Part shown: one piece after another, positions 31,113 to 60,802 of the stretch
Layout of the letters: each line of letters opens with the position of its first letter
Numbering within the stretch: position 1 is the stretch's first letter
Source: Hymenobacter negativus
GTDB taxonomy: Bacteria; Bacteroidota; Bacteroidia; Cytophagales; Hymenobacteraceae
DNA: 64,000 bases
Direction of reading: 5' to 3'
Assembly: GCF_016056375.1 (NCBI RefSeq)
Contig: NZ_JAEDAE010000008.1
Span: forward strand, 1 to 64,000
Notes under the pieces: model-generated
What the model saw: the letters and a program-made list of their open reading frames with translations, nothing else
Databases searched by the model: none
What the model was told of the DNA's origin: nothing
Program-made: the position numbers and the translations under genes

Positions 31113-31192
31113 TGTCATTCCGACGCAGGAGGAATCTGAGTAAAATCATTGTTCAACGACCTCACTCAGATTCCTCCTGCGTCGGAATGACA
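31113..31192. repeat. Perfect 29-bp inverted repeat, TGTCATTCCGAC family
   Basis: Arms 31113-31141 and 31164-31192 are exact complements with a 22-nt loop. They read TGTCATTCCGACGCAGGAGG then AATCTGAGT. The same family recurs at 48483-48561. Confidence 0.9.
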
Positions 31193-43643: not shown

Positions 43644-43805
43644 ACCACGGATTCATCCGGATTTTTCGGATTGCACGGATTTCGTAGACGAACCAACTAA
43701 ACAACAAAAAGGCCACCGCGAGGTGGCCTTTTTTACTTAAAGCGTTTGCCGTAAGTGACGTTCACAAAATCCGTGCAATCCGAAAAATCCGGATGAATCC
43801 GTGGT
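43644..43805. repeat. Perfect 39-bp inverted repeat spanning two stop codons
   Basis: Arms 43644-43682 and 43767-43805 are exact complements (ACCACGGATTCATCC ..., then TTGCACGGATTT). The left arm begins at the base after the reductase TGA; the right arm ends on the first base of the psd stop codon (read on the plus strand). A terminator hairpin sits in the loop. Confidence 0.92.
43706..43734. terminator. Bidirectional terminator inside the repeat loop
   Basis: AAAAAGGCCACC / GGTGGCCTTTTT stem with a 4-nt loop; serves the reductase gene and psd, which converge. Confidence 0.85.
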
Positions 43806-46079: not shown

Positions 46080-46136
46080 TTGCTTTTGGCAAGATGACGC
46101 AGGCAAAGCTTCCCAAACGTTTGGGAAAACATTAAC

Positions 46137-46336
46137 CGCCTGTCATTGCGAGTGGAGCGCAGCGCAACGCGGCAATCTGTCCTGTCATAACCAGAAACGC
46201 TCTTTTAACAGAAAGCCCCGATACTTTGCAGTGTCGGGGCTTTCTGTTAAAAGAGCGTTTGTCACATCTCAGGGTTGGTCGCATTCAGAGGACGGATTGC
46301 CGCGTTGCGCTGCGCTCCACTCGCAATGACAGGCGG
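46137..46336. repeat. Nested inverted repeat, TGTCATTGCGAG family
   Basis: Outer arms of about 47 nt (46137-46183 and 46289-46336) are near-perfect complements containing TGTCATTGCGAGTGGAGCGC and ACGCGGCAATC. Inside lies a second, separate 28-bp hairpin (46194-46260). The outer right arm ends on the base before the cdsA stop codon. Confidence 0.88.
46194..46260. terminator. Long hairpin, probable terminator after cdsA
   Basis: About 28 bp of stem beginning AAACGCTCTTTTAACAGAAA and including AGCCCCGA / TCGGGGCT, loop about 10 nt. It lies inside the outer repeat arms. It is too long for a minimal terminator, but its position past cdsA fits that role. Confidence 0.55.
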
Positions 46337-47407
46337 CTACCCCGCCAGCAGCTGCAGCAGCGCCAGCACCGGCAGCACCAGCAGAAACGCGTCAAACCTA
46401 TCGAGCAGGCCGCCGTGGCCGGGCATAATGCTGCCCGAGTCCTTCACCCCCACGCTGCGCTTGAGCATGGACTCGGCCAAATCGCCAAGAGGCGCGAACA
46501 CGGCCACCACGCCGGCCGCCACGAGACGGTGCATGAGGGGCATGTCGGGCAGCATGTAGCCGATGGCCCAGCCCACCAGCAGGGTCATGGCGAAGCCGCC
46601 GGCCCAGCCTTCCCAGGTTTTGCCGGGCGAGATTTGGGGAGCCAGCTTGTGCTTGCCAATGGCCCGGCCCACGGCGTACGCGCCGATATCGGAAGCCCAG
46701 ATGAGGAAGAGCAGGGCGAAGACGCGGCGGTAGTCGTAGCCCCCTGGTTTGAAGGCAAGGACAATAAGTGCCGTCATTGGCACACTGATATAGAGCAACC
46801 CGGTAATGGCGGCGCCCATGTTTGCGAAAGGTTGACTGTACTTGGGCCAAAGAAACATTTCGCGAATCAGCAGAATCACCGTTGTTGCGGTGAGCAGCGC
46901 GCCTGGAATGGCGAACAATGTCAGCCAGGTTTGCGACTGCCAAAAGGATGCCGTGATGTGTTCCGCGAGTTTATTTCCTTCGGGTGAACCGTCCGTTTTG
47001 GCCAGCGAAATGATGCTGTCGCCCATCAGGTAGTAAGTACCGAATAAAACGCTCCCAAACAGCGCTAAACTCACCCCCACCCCAATCCACGTAGCCGGCG
47101 CGTAGCCGCCCGCCCGCATCATGCGGTAGAACTCCCAGAGCATGATGGCCTGCACGGCGGCGAAGAACAGCCCGAACGTGAAGGGGCTGAACCAGACGCT
47201 GCCCAGCAGCAGCACGGCTCCGATGACGCCCCAGATGACGCGCAGGCGCAGGTTGCTGGGGCCGGCGGGCGCAGCGGTAGTTTCGGGAGTGGCGGCAGGA
47301 ATGGTCTGAGGCGTAGAGTCGGGCAAAGTAGGAAGGGATGTAGAGACGCATAATTGCGTCTCGTCGTTGGGATTGGTATTTATAAAGGTGCCGTTACGGA
47401 CGTTCAA
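46337..47407 (-). CDS. cdsA: Phosphatidate cytidylyltransferase
   Basis: It makes CDP-diacylglycerol, the precursor of all phospholipids. The 356-residue membrane protein has about eight hydrophobic segments and the family signature near the C-terminus (ISPGKTWEGWAGGF, FAPLGDLAESMLKRSVGVKD, MPGHGGLLDRFDAFLLVLPV). No ATG precedes the first membrane helix. The only usable codon is TTG at 47407, giving an N-terminal tail of about 50 residues rich in Thr, Pro and Ala. Part of that tail (NPNDETQLCVST) is encoded by one arm of the repeat at 47340-47469. The start is therefore uncertain. A CPBP protease gene lies directly upstream. Confidence 0.9.
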   Translation of the reverse strand: MNVRNGTFINTNPNDETQLCVSTSLPTLPDSTPQTIPAATPETTAAPAGPSNLRLRVIWGVIGAVLLLGSVWFSPFTFGLFFAAVQAIMLWEFYRMMRAGGYAPATWIGVGVSLALFGSVLFGTYYLMGDSIISLAKTDGSPEGNKLAEHITASFWQSQTWLTLFAIPGALLTATTVILLIREMFLWPKYSQPFANMGAAITGLLYISVPMTALIVLAFKPGGYDYRRVFALLFLIWASDIGAYAVGRAIGKHKLAPQISPGKTWEGWAGGFAMTLLVGWAIGYMLPDMPLMHRLVAAGVVAVFAPLGDLAESMLKRSVGVKDSGSIMPGHGGLLDRFDAFLLVLPVLALLQLLAG

Positions 47408-48482: not shown

Positions 48483-48561
48483 TGTCATTCCGACCGAAGG
48501 GAGGAATCTGGGAAATCTGCCAGTGGCCAAGCTCAGATTCCTCCCTTCGGTCGGAATGACA
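48483..48561. repeat. Perfect 28-bp inverted repeat, TGTCATTCCGAC family
   Basis: Arms 48483-48510 and 48534-48561 (TGTCATTCCGACCGAAGGGA then GGAATCTG) with a 23-nt loop. The right arm ends in GGAATGACA, whose ATG at 48556 is a candidate start codon of the next gene. Confidence 0.9.
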
Positions 48562-49580: not shown

Positions 49581-49703
49581 ACGCCTGTCGTCCTGAGCGC
49601 AGCAAAGGACCTTACCACGCCTGACCGAGTTTGCAGCAATCAGCTCTACTGCAAGCCGTTCTTTAGTGATAAGGTCCTTCGCTGCGCTCAGGACGACAGG
49701 CGT
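49581..49703. repeat. Inverted repeat, GTCNTCCTGAGC family
   Basis: Left arm 49581-49618 (ACGCCTGTCGTCCTGAGCGC ...), right arm 49666-49703, near-perfect complements with two or three mismatches; loop about 47 nt. Same family as 2749. Confidence 0.85.
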
Positions 49704-57075: not shown

Positions 57076-57124
57076 TTGGTTGCCGGGCAGCCGAAAGTTT
57101 TCACTGGTCTTTCGCCTCAACCTC

Positions 57125-58228
57125 ATGCACCTTTCTGCCGACACTTTTCAGCACCTGCTCGATAGCAACCCCCAAACGTTTTTTGCCTACGACATCGCCG
57201 CTGGCGAAGTGTGCTACGTGAGCGCGGCCTACGAAACGCTTTTCCCCGGCTTCCGGTGCGAAGACGTGGACGCCGACCTGCCCCGGCTGCTGAGCTTCCT
57301 GCCCCCCGATGACCAGACTTACGTCCGCCACTGCCTGGGGCAGCTGGCCGCCGGCCACCTCTGCGACGACCTGCTGCTGCGCCTGCAGCCCCGCCTCAAC
57401 GTGCCCATGCGCTGGCTGGCCATGAAGGCGCAACGCAGCACCGCCCCCGATGGCCGCCTGCTGCTGACCGGCACCATCGAGGACGTAACGGTGGAGCAGG
57501 AGTACCTGCGCAACGCCGACAAGTACATGGCCAAGAAGAACACTACGCTCGAAATTCTGTCGCACGACCTGGCCGGTCCGTTCAGCATGCTCCAGCAGCT
57601 GGCCGAATTTCTGGAGGAGAAAACCCAGACCCTGCAAGATGCGCAGGTGCAAAAGATGCTGCGCGTGATGCGCGACACCTGCCGCGACAGCGTCAACCTT
57701 ATCCGCGATTTTGTGGATGGTGAGTTCATGGACTCGGCCGCCGTGCAGCTCAAGCGCACCCGCGTAGACCTGGTGCTGGCCCTGCGCCAGGTGGTGGAAA
57801 CGTACCAGGTGAGCGAGCACTTGGTGGCCAAGCATTTTGAGTTTCGGCCCACGCAGCCCACGCTTTTTGTTGAAATCGACAACAACAAGTTTTTGCAGGT
57901 GATTAACAACCTGATGTCTAACGCCATCAAGTTCACCCGCGAGGGCGGCCACATCACCGTGGGCCTGACCCAGCACCCCAGCCACGTGCTCGTGACCGTG
58001 GCCGACGACGGCATCGGAATTCCGGCCCACCTGCTGCCAGTATTGTTCGACCGCTTCACCCCCGCCCGCCGCCCCGGCCTGCGCGGCGAAAAAACCACCG
58101 GCCTGGGCATGCACATCATCGGAACCATCGTGCGGTTGCACCACGGCCACATCTGGGTGGAAAGCGAGGAAAACGTGGGCACCACGTTTTACATCAAGCT
58201 GCCGGCTACGGCCGGGGCGGCGGGTTGA
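57125..58228 (+). CDS. Soluble PAS-domain sensor histidine kinase
   Basis: A 367-residue cytosolic kinase with no membrane segment. An N-terminal PAS-like domain (about 5-125; FFAYDIAAGEVCYVSAAYET, LLLTGTIEDVTVEQEYLRNA) leads to the H-box LEILSHDLAGPFSMLQQLAE (His 147), N-box FLQVINNLMSNAIKFTREGG, and G-boxes VADDGIGIPAHLLPVLFDRF and TTGLGMHIIGTIVRLH. ATG 57125 starts the PAS domain; an in-frame ATG at 57080, 5 nt after the permease stop, would add 15 residues. No response regulator is adjacent. Confidence 0.9.
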   Translation: MHLSADTFQHLLDSNPQTFFAYDIAAGEVCYVSAAYETLFPGFRCEDVDADLPRLLSFLPPDDQTYVRHCLGQLAAGHLCDDLLLRLQPRLNVPMRWLAMKAQRSTAPDGRLLLTGTIEDVTVEQEYLRNADKYMAKKNTTLEILSHDLAGPFSMLQQLAEFLEEKTQTLQDAQVQKMLRVMRDTCRDSVNLIRDFVDGEFMDSAAVQLKRTRVDLVLALRQVVETYQVSEHLVAKHFEFRPTQPTLFVEIDNNKFLQVINNLMSNAIKFTREGGHITVGLTQHPSHVLVTVADDGIGIPAHLLPVLFDRFTPARRPGLRGEKTTGLGMHIIGTIVRLHHGHIWVESEENVGTTFYIKLPATAGAAG

Positions 58229-58251: not shown

Positions 58252-58488
58252 GCCTCCTTTCTCACTCTTCGCCTGCACGGCACCATCCCCGCGGCCACTG
58301 GCCGCGAGCTGGCCGCCGGGCTGCGCCCCAGGCTCCCGCCCGAAGCCGAATTCTGGCAGGCGGGCTGGTTTAACTACGAGGTGCAGGACGAAGCCGAACT
58401 CACCCGCCTGCTGGCCTATGTGCGCGGCAATGCCCGGCAGGCGGGCCTGCCCGCCCGCTTCCAGGAGTGGCCGTATGTAAATGACTGA
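58252..58488 (+). pseudogene. REP-associated tyrosine transposase (RAYT) remnant
   Basis: A 78-codon open stretch with no start codon: it follows a TAG at 58249-58251 and ends in TGA. It begins FLTLRLHGTIPAATG, like the RAYT N-terminus (usually a FxTxRLHGSLP-type string). It then jumps to the RAYT C-terminus: EFWQAGWFNYEVQDEAELTR, LLAYVRGNARQAGLPARFQE, WPYV, matching the usual pattern WQ..Y...V.D..EL.R...Y...N...AGL....EWPY. The catalytic core with the HUH motif and Tyr is missing, so it is internally deleted and inactive. A GTCATCCTGAG-type repeat lies 20 nt downstream. Confidence 0.65.
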
Positions 58489-58508
58489 GCTGGTGGTTTG
58501 CGCATCCC

Positions 58509-58627
58509 TGTCATCCTGAGTGCAGCAAAGGACCTTATCACGGATGGTCCGATTAGATTAACCCGAACCGTTCAGCGGTGACAAGGTCCTTCGTCTTCGC
58601 TTTATGCGCGAAATGCTCAGGATAACA
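58509..58627. repeat. Imperfect inverted repeat, TGTCATCCTGAG family
   Basis: Left end TGTCATCCTGAGTGCAGCAA then AGGACCTTATCACGG; right end about 58577-58627 is its complement. The right arm carries an insertion of about 14 nt (CGTCTTCGCTTTATGCG region). It lies next to the transposase remnant. Confidence 0.8.
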
Positions 58628-58687: not shown

Positions 58688-59665
58688 ATGCGCCTGCCGA
58701 TACTGCTGCTGTTTCTGGGATTCTGCGGCTTCACGGGCCACGCCGCCCCTGCTCCGGCCGATACGCTGCGGCCCATCAGCCCCAGCAGGCTGCTGCGCTA
58801 CACCTACGCCAACGACCTGTTTTTCCGCACCGATTACTACTTCACGCAGGGCATGACGCTCACGCTGGTGCACCCAATGCTGGCCCGCCTGCCGGTGCGG
58901 CCCCTGCTGGCGGCCGGCCCGCGTGGCAGCATGCAGCAGCACGGCCTCACGCTGCGCTACGATGGGTTTACGCCCCTTCGTATTCAGGACGCGTTTATTC
59001 GGGTGGGCGACCGGCCGTATGCAGCGTATCTGTACGGGTCGTTTTTCCGGGTCAGCAATCAGCCGGCCCGCCACCAGCGCCTGACTACGGCGCTGGAAAT
59101 CGGCTTCATCGGCCCGGCCGCCGGCGGCAAGCAACTCCAAACCGCCATCCACCGCCTCACCGGCAATGCCGAGCCGCGTGGCTGGGATTACCAGATTCGG
59201 AATGCGCCCATCATCGGCTACCGCGTGGCGTTTGAGAAGCAGCTAGCCGCCAATCAGCACGTTGATTTGCTGGGTAATGCCGAAGCCTCCCTCGGCACGC
59301 TGTACACTTATGCCGGCACGGGTTTACGGCTTCGGGCAGGAAAACTCAATCCCTGTTTCGCTGATTTGGCCGTAACTAGTCCGGGCTATAGCGGGAAAGC
59401 GCACTGGCAACTCTACGGCGAAGCCACGCTGACCGGCCGCCTCATTGGCTACGATGCCACCTTGCAGGGCAGCCCTTTCACCAACCGCGACCCGTACACC
59501 CTACACGCCAGCGACGTGGGTCGGGCCATTTTGCGCAGTTCCGGCGGCGTGGTGCTGGCTCACGGCGGGCTGAGCTTTGCTGCCACGGCCACCTGGGTTT
59601 CACCGGAATTCGCAGGCGGCCGCTCGCACCGCTGGGGGCAATTGGGCATGACCGTGGCGTTTTAG
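58688..59665 (+). CDS. LpxR-like lipid A deacylase
   Basis: A 325-residue outer-membrane barrel protein of the DUF2219/LpxR family, which removes the 3'-linked acyl chains of lipid A. It has a signal peptide (1-20), then YTYANDLFFRTDYYFTQGM, holding the conserved Asn-Asp pair (42-43) and the TD..FTxG pattern. RPYAAYLYGSFF and AIHRLTGNAEPRGWDYQI follow, with the conserved active-site His (155). The barrel closes with VAF. LpxR changes how lipid A is seen by host sensors in pathogens; in this organism a role in envelope remodelling is inferred. No lipid A biosynthesis gene is nearby. Confidence 0.87.
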   Translation: MRLPILLLFLGFCGFTGHAAPAPADTLRPISPSRLLRYTYANDLFFRTDYYFTQGMTLTLVHPMLARLPVRPLLAAGPRGSMQQHGLTLRYDGFTPLRIQDAFIRVGDRPYAAYLYGSFFRVSNQPARHQRLTTALEIGFIGPAAGGKQLQTAIHRLTGNAEPRGWDYQIRNAPIIGYRVAFEKQLAANQHVDLLGNAEASLGTLYTYAGTGLRLRAGKLNPCFADLAVTSPGYSGKAHWQLYGEATLTGRLIGYDATLQGSPFTNRDPYTLHASDVGRAILRSSGGVVLAHGGLSFAATATWVSPEFAGGRSHRWGQLGMTVAF

Positions 59666-59674
59666 CCGAGCGTT

Positions 59675-59768
59675 GTAGAGACGCATTGTTGCGTCTCGTC
59701 GTTGAACGGTGTTGATGAACGGTCAGGCGTCGCGGCGCGAATGACGAGACGCAAATACGCATTTCTAC
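59675..59768. repeat. Inverted repeat, GTAGAGACGCA family, covering a stop codon
   Basis: Arms 59675-59700 and 59743-59768 (GTAGAGACGCATTGTTGCG ...); each arm is also a small hairpin. The right arm includes the stop codon of the EamA gene (59765-59767). Second copy of the 47340 family. Confidence 0.85.
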
Positions 59769-60802
59769 CGTGCTCGGTGGATGATGAGCACGCCCGCCAG
59801 AATCACCACCATGCCGGCAAAGTGCCACAGGTTGAACGCCTCGCCGTCGAGCGCGCCCCAGGCCAAGGCCACGATGGGAATCAGGTACGTGCTCGACGAG
59901 GCAAACAGCGCCGTCGATTGCTGAATCAGCCTGTTAAACAACACCATGGCTACGGCGGTGCTCATGGTGGCCAACAGCGCAATGTAGCCAAACGCCGCCC
60001 AGGCCCCTGGCACCGTGGCCAGCTTGTGCAGAAACCCGGTGCCCAGCAGCAGGTACGCCAGCGCCGGCCCGCCGATAAGCAGCAGCAGTACCGACGTGAC
60101 GGCCACCGGAGTCATCGCACTCAGCTTGTGCTTGATAACATTCACACTCAGCCCGTAGCCCATCGTGGCAATCAGAATGTAGATGCCGTACCAGGCATTG
60201 CCCTCGCCGGCGGGCGTGGCATCGCCGCCGCTGCCGCCCAGTTGCAGCATTACCACCGTGCCCACCAGCCCCAGCGTGATGCCCAGCACCCGCAGCCCCG
60301 TTAGGCGCTGCCGAAACAGCAACGCTCCCACCAGCAGCGTGAATACCACCGTGAGGGCATTGAGCACGCCCGCCAGCCCCGAGGCCAGCCGGGTTTCGGC
60401 ATACGCAAACAGAAAGGCTGGTATTAGCGTCCCCACCACTCCGCTCAGTGCCAGCCACTTGAAGCGGCTGCGCTCTACCCGCCGCACGTGGCGCAGGGCA
60501 AACGGCAGCAGCAGCAGCGCGGCCACGCTCACGCGGGTAGCACCCAGCTCCATAGCCGAAAACACCACCAACCCCTTCTTCATCAGAATAAACGACGTGC
60601 CCCAGATGGACGCCAGAACGAGCAGCAGCATCCACGCCACGGGCGAGGTAACGGCCGGCGCGGGTGCGGCCAGCGCCTCAGTCGCTTCGAGGGAGGCCGT
60701 CTCATCGGCCGCGCCCGGCAGCGTGGTTTCGGGCGCAGAAGCAACCCTGGCGGGCGTGGGCACGAGTGAGGAATGAGCGGCGGGTGGGAGTTTCGGCGAC
60801 AT
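59765..60802 (-). CDS. EamA (DMT) family transporter
   Basis: A 345-residue inner-membrane transporter with about ten helices in two EamA repeats (LLVLASIWGTSFILMKKGLV, VVGTLIPAFLFAYAETRLAS, LATMSTAVAMVLFNRLIQQS, YLIPIVALAWGALDGE). An N-terminal tail of about 55 residues rich in Ala, Pro and Thr precedes the first helix. Members move metabolites, nucleotide sugars or amino acids; substrate unknown. The ATG at 60802 is fixed by a consensus promoter box 4 nt upstream; an open frame continuing 32 codons further is rejected for that reason. Confidence 0.9.
   Translation of the reverse strand: MSPKLPPAAHSSLVPTPARVASAPETTLPGAADETASLEATEALAAPAPAVTSPVAWMLLLVLASIWGTSFILMKKGLVVFSAMELGATRVSVAALLLLPFALRHVRRVERSRFKWLALSGVVGTLIPAFLFAYAETRLASGLAGVLNALTVVFTLLVGALLFRQRLTGLRVLGITLGLVGTVVMLQLGGSGGDATPAGEGNAWYGIYILIATMGYGLSVNVIKHKLSAMTPVAVTSVLLLLIGGPALAYLLLGTGFLHKLATVPGAWAAFGYIALLATMSTAVAMVLFNRLIQQSTALFASSSTYLIPIVALAWGALDGEAFNLWHFAGMVVILAGVLIIHRAR

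Follow-up and report, generated by a model that had tools for sequence, protein, structure and literature searches.

Recognition and cleavage by characterised RAYTs are directed by the tetranucleotide at the foot of the REP and by the bulges in its stem (PMC8266576). REPs are concentrated within 20 bp of the 3' ends of ORFs, and for those of the CGTC type no dedicated transposase was named and the origin was left open (Di Nocera 2013, PMC3733652). Five phyla are reported to contain CGTC-type REPs; in the open-access literature we found no report of a RAYT paired with them. Here we describe the remnant of a RAYT-like gene in a 64,000-nt stretch of Hymenobacter negativus DNA (hereafter the window), the clade of intact genes to which it belongs (clade A), and a family of YGTC-footed repeats (GTCAT repeats) that occurs beside it. 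The explanation that accounts best for the observations as a whole is that the scar and clade A probably represent a present or past multiplier of YGTC-footed REP pairs.

The deleted gene and its intact relatives

A stop-to-stop frame of 78 codons without a start codon occupies positions 58252-58485, followed by a stop at 58486-58488, and its translation reads ASFLTLRLHGTIPAATGRELAAGLRPRLPPEAEFWQ...LLAYVRGNARQAGLPARFQEWPYVND. The initial annotation had seen N- and C-terminal RAYT-like parts joined in this frame, and both its reading and the profile search it proposed were borne out: the 45-residue C-terminal stretch matches NCBIfam NF047646 (REP_Tyr_transpos; 28.8 bits, E 9.5e-7), while a Pfam search of the fragment gave no match. 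Intact homologues (~185-230 aa) were found across 150 genomes of the same family, and query residues 1-24 and 13-76 align to them as separate blocks ~340 bp apart; the fragment therefore stems from an internal deletion rather than from chance. From the frame and the alignments with homologues and an orthologue, the forward-strand N-terminal remnant (ASFLTLRLHGTIPAATGRELAAGLR, without start codon) extends over 58252-58327, with the deletion junction at 58322-58327, where alignment to the orthologue of genome G100 reveals a 6-bp microhomology (TGCGCC); the C-terminal remnant, delimited by frame, profile match and alignment, follows at 58328-58488 on the same strand and retains the W of FWQ, the catalytic Tyr codon and the natural stop TGA. 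Relative to the G100 orthologue, ~303 bp are missing in frame, including the HUH motif. The earlier statement that the HUH/Tyr core was missing was thus half right: the HUH motif alone is lost, and the Tyr of AYVRGN is still encoded at 58417-58419. Differences between the C-terminal remnant and its relatives are mostly synonymous, the same pattern as among the intact genes, so that the deletion looks recent.

The neighbours place the fragment at an old site of the gene. A histidine-kinase-like gene lies on its 5' side (57080-58228, forward strand), and its orthologue stands upstream of an intact clade A RAYT in several relatives; an LpxR-like/DUF2219-like gene, named from sequence alone, lies on its 3' side (58688-59665, forward strand), and in many relatives its orthologue is found 0.1-0.4 kb downstream of an intact clade A RAYT. 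Intact clade A genes at the same position in relatives indicate that the window keeps the former site. Judged from these alignments, the fragment is almost certainly what an in-frame deletion left of a clade A RAYT, as the initial annotation had proposed in calling it a RAYT scar. The clade A gene is dead in this genome, and the GTCAT repeats would persist there as a relic population.

Clades A and B were separated by scanning the genomes with a profile built from intact proteins. Clade A comprises 51 genomes with one copy each, all scoring above 260 bits save one gene split by a stop (stops are present in 3 of the 51), and the genome scan confines it to Hymenobacter, including one Hymenobacteraceae MAG, and Solirubrum, barring remote relatives at 26-29% identity. 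The flanks of distant homologues outside Bacteroidota (L264-L268) were searched and contained no GTCAT REPs. Clade B, taken as 39 loci after weaker B-like matches had been left out, scores 106-147 bits with the clade A profile and occurs in Hymenobacter and one other genus. The sequences show that the clade A gene is largely vertically inherited and single-copy; an IS200/IS605 insertion sequence, which would be mobile and multicopy with characteristic IS ends, was considered and rejected, with one copy per genome, many at a conserved locus, and no shared ends.

In intact clade A proteins, LPNH[AVL]H and FWQ are present and a Tyr occupies the RAYT position; both His of the HUH motif (U, hydrophobic) are invariant in A1, and the Tyr is invariant within YVRGNA, YVQHHA or YLAAHP, as against the usual Y---NP. 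An AF2 model of a clade A protein (mean pLDDT 75) has a Y1 fold that matches IS608 TnpA and TnpA_REP 4ER8 (VIA Z 10.5, rmsd 3.1 over 123 residues); the best 30 Foldseek hits with this model are all Y1-type transposases, 4ER8 among them at E 4.3e-4, and a profile comparison with the 4ER8 sequence gives E 6.6e-4. Four intact clade A proteins score 46-58 bits on NF047646, below its curated cut-off of 80 bits, and we therefore file clade A as a divergent, RAYT-like clade.

A PF01797 search of the source genome gave no match. Besides the scar, contig 12 of this genome carries a single intact RAYT-like gene of more distant kinship (L123), with GTAGAGACGCA...TGCGTCTC REPs on either side. The window, too, contains a second REP family, tagged GTAG (GTAGAGACGCA...TGCGTCTCGTCGTT), at 47340-47368 and at 59675-59703, the latter with an inverted mate at 59740-59777; since these same REPs flank the intact contig 12 gene, a functional mobiliser of this family may remain in the source genome.

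The GTCAT repeats and their position beside genes

Allowing up to 3 mismatches, the family pattern GTCATCCTGAGCGNAGCRAAGGACCTT is found 208 times in the source genome, compared with 0 for the reversed control. In the window and in relatives the repeats follow the layout YGTC-AT-XX(X)-GA-loop-GA-X'X'X'(A). This is a hairpin made imperfect by tandem GA mismatches, in which a stem of 4-5 bp, the GA/GA mismatch and a further 2 bp lead to a 3-nt loop, with a tail that is mostly CTC or CTT. Inverted pairs with the feet outward (97, median outer length 94) were found alongside 56 singles. Stem letters differ between classes yet stay complementary (128/261 vs 41 in shuffles, in a set chosen without regard to the 3' arm), and position -1 is C in 52% and T in 38% of 269 distinct flanks, giving a CGTC or TGTC foot. 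The GTCAT repeats thus belong to the TGTC/CGTC-footed REP superfamily, with a differing stem and loop. By DNA energy rules the stability of single REP hairpins is not unusual. Position -4 is a G in 71% of the repeats, and in 77% of these (148/191) the next base is A or C. The flanks of the repeats are alike in inverted orientation, and a search for direct duplications in them found none. Most apparent empty sites proved to be poor alignments; at one site, three relatives (L124, L066, L058) have a complete REP pair with AAC/GTT flanks, and the matching site of genome G126 (L059) has one chimaeric hairpin, GTCATTCCGAGCCTGCGAGCAATGAC, such as an internal deletion within the pair would leave.

Elsewhere in the window, an intact GTCATCCTGAG pair (2749-2850), folded as a single strand, forms a continuous long hairpin (-52 kcal/mol, z -15), and the repeat analysis located a GTCATGCTGAG pair at 1285-1383 and GTCATTCCGAC pairs at 31114-31191 and 48484-48560. 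A long GTCATTGCGAG pair of the TTGC class at 46142-46330 (or 46133-46339) encloses another near-perfect inverted repeat of 31 nt (46195-46260), and a pair of the CCT class with the variant foot GTCGTCCTGAG lies at 49581-49703. A 47-nt inverted repeat, ACCACGGATTCATCCGGATTTTTCGG..., at 43644-43805 is unlike either the GTCAT or the GTAG family.

The inverted repeat that had been noted close downstream of the fragment is indeed a GTCAT REP pair in inverted orientation (58509-58627); its left REP (58510-58532) starts 22 bp beyond the fragment's stop, and the right arm is degenerate, the inverted mate having been degraded by an ~18-bp insertion. Among clade A loci, a GTCAT repeat lies within 30 bp past the stop in 9/51 (strict) or 10/51 (relaxed), ~20%, whereas such a REP follows 3.4% (strict) or 4.7% (relaxed) of other genes and 0/39 clade B loci; the clade A excess has a naive binomial p of 8e-6, which ignores phylogeny. 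In a comparison of 16 orthogroups (L033-L122), RAYT A ranks third. At the top is a DusB-like tRNA-dihydrouridine synthase gene with a GTCAT REP within 30 bp past its stop in 10/19 genomes (53%), and an ordinary gene that outscores clade A makes adjacency weak evidence. REP adjacency was accordingly rejected as proof of a cognate pairing: it is enriched, yet not distinctive against orthologous genes. The REP beside each RAYT belongs to the genome's dominant class in about half of the cases, which is no signal. There is about an even chance that this REP lies next to the scar by coincidence, left there by repeats settling behind gene ends generally; the frequencies in other genes and in the DusB-like gene, and the published clustering near ORF 3' ends (PMC3733652), speak for this, and the difference between clades A and B, with its uncorrected p value, speaks against it. 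This reading concerns adjacency only and is compatible with clade A as a multiplier of the repeats.

Flanking repeats were also compared between the clades. Two-sided cognate REP flanks (a REPtron) are absent from the 51 clade A loci, and shared repeats around clade A amount to chance matches of 13-16 bp. The search suggested earlier for intact RAYTs flanked by these repeats recovered the intact orthologues in other Hymenobacter but not the two-sided flanks. Most clade B loci have repeated hairpins on both flanks, mostly GTAG-tagged, e.g., AGTAGCGCGAACTTTGTAGTTCGCG.

Repeat copy number and the presence of clade A

GTCAT repeats were counted with three exact patterns, which miss other stem classes. 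Within the same genus, the median count is 280 in 41 genomes with an intact clade A gene, 123.5 in 20 without one and 104 in five with a broken one (intact vs without, MWU p 5e-6). In PGLS over 74 genomes on rpoB trees (a single gene), intact A raises GTCAT repeats by b=+0.89 to +1.10 log2 units, about twofold (p 3e-4 to 2e-5); clade B leaves their number unaffected (b ~0, p 0.59-0.93). For GTAG repeats, it is clade B that has an effect (b ~+1.5, p 2e-5 to 6e-5), and the weak effect of clade A (p 0.02-0.04) vanishes with GTCAT count as a covariate. The effect of A on GTCAT repeats persists when genome size and the count of other RAYTs are entered as covariates (p 4e-4 to 4e-5; one genome-size fit, on the codon-position-1+2 tree with p 1e-40, was numerically implausible and was excluded) and with GTAG count as a covariate (p 5e-4 to 1e-3). 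This double dissociation of A and B on GTCAT and GTAG repeats is the main evidence for the clade A link, and it is a correlation that does not give the direction. From the copy-number correlation, we consider it more likely than not that clade A drives GTCAT copy number.

GTCAT repeats are also found where clade A is missing. Some genomes without clade A hold 100-250 of them (e.g., G044, G145 and G031), and in one genus (g2) they are present without any clade A or B match, which indicates that clade A is not required for their presence. It could be, therefore, that the scar is a RAYT but that other RAYTs or unknown transposases spread the GTCAT repeats, clade A merely surviving in REP-tolerant genomes. 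We regard this as unlikely, although, apart from these genomes, it would agree with a small positive effect of how many other RAYTs a genome has (b 0.14-0.19 per gene, p 0.01-0.03), with the weak clade A effect on GTAG repeats and with the lack of two-sided flanks at clade A loci; against it are the lack of a clade B effect on GTCAT repeats, the survival of the A effect under covariates, and another genus (g3) in which generic RAYTs are common and GTCAT repeats almost absent. It is extremely improbable that the fragment does not derive from a RAYT and is instead a chance frame or a small functional gene: the frame is intact and its synonymous/nonsynonymous pattern resembles that of intact genes, but it has no start codon, has lost HUH and has a clean deletion junction, and intact orthologues occupy the same locus and already refute chance.

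We therefore retain clade A as the probable multiplier. The proposal in the initial annotation that a RAYT spread the repeats gains from the clade- and repeat-specific, phylogeny-corrected association, and it loses from an adjacency that is not distinctive and from repeats that occur without a detectable RAYT. By analogy with the GTAG RAYTs (PMC8266576), the clade A protein would bind the hairpin, with the tandem GA mismatches it contains, in single-stranded form, the YGTC foot would serve the protein as guide, the Tyr would cut near the G at -4, and the REP copies would be rejoined elsewhere, thereby multiplying the repeat; under the guide rule tested on those RAYTs, YGTC should select GA or GC as cleavage dinucleotides. 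That clade A uses the YGTC foot in this way is a tentative suggestion. Its being the dedicated transposase of CGTC-type REPs, with YGTC and not GTAG as the guide tetranucleotide, is a possibility that falls just short of even.

Comparison with known systems

If so, the finding points to a candidate mobiliser for a repeat class that was said to have none in the 2013 survey. Clade A tracking GTCAT count beside clade B tracking GTAG makes the question of REP origin testable with purified proteins, and the broken clade A genes offer a natural set for studying how repeat populations fade.

With the RAYT/TnpA_REP family (NF047646; E. coli 4ER8), clade A shares the HUH and Tyr motifs, FWQ, the Y1 fold, one copy per genome and an association with dimeric repeats of imperfect palindromes; it differs in scoring below the family cut-off, in its three Tyr contexts in place of Y---NP, in the YGTC rather than GTAG foot of its associated repeats, and in the absence of two-sided REP flanks. 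The clade B RAYTs of Hymenobacter occur in the same genomes and belong to the same overall protein family, being found by the clade A profile; unlike clade A, they have repeated hairpins (mostly GTAG) on both sides and predict GTAG, not GTCAT, copy number. TnpA subclass 2.6 (PMC6006769) resembles clade A in its occurrence in Bacteroidetes and its WQ motif, and its repeats are described as atypical secondary structures; its Tyr motif, YIH[QN]NP, is unlike that of clade A. The GTCAT repeats themselves share with the CGTC-tagged REPs (PMC3733652) the CGTC/TGTC foot, the AT at the stem base, and an arrangement as head-to-head dimers that are extragenic and multicopy, whereas the CGTC-type REP has a stem of 8-9 bp, a loop of 4-5 nt and a CCA tail, and the GTCAT repeat has a GA/GA-interrupted stem, a 3-nt loop and CTC/CTT.
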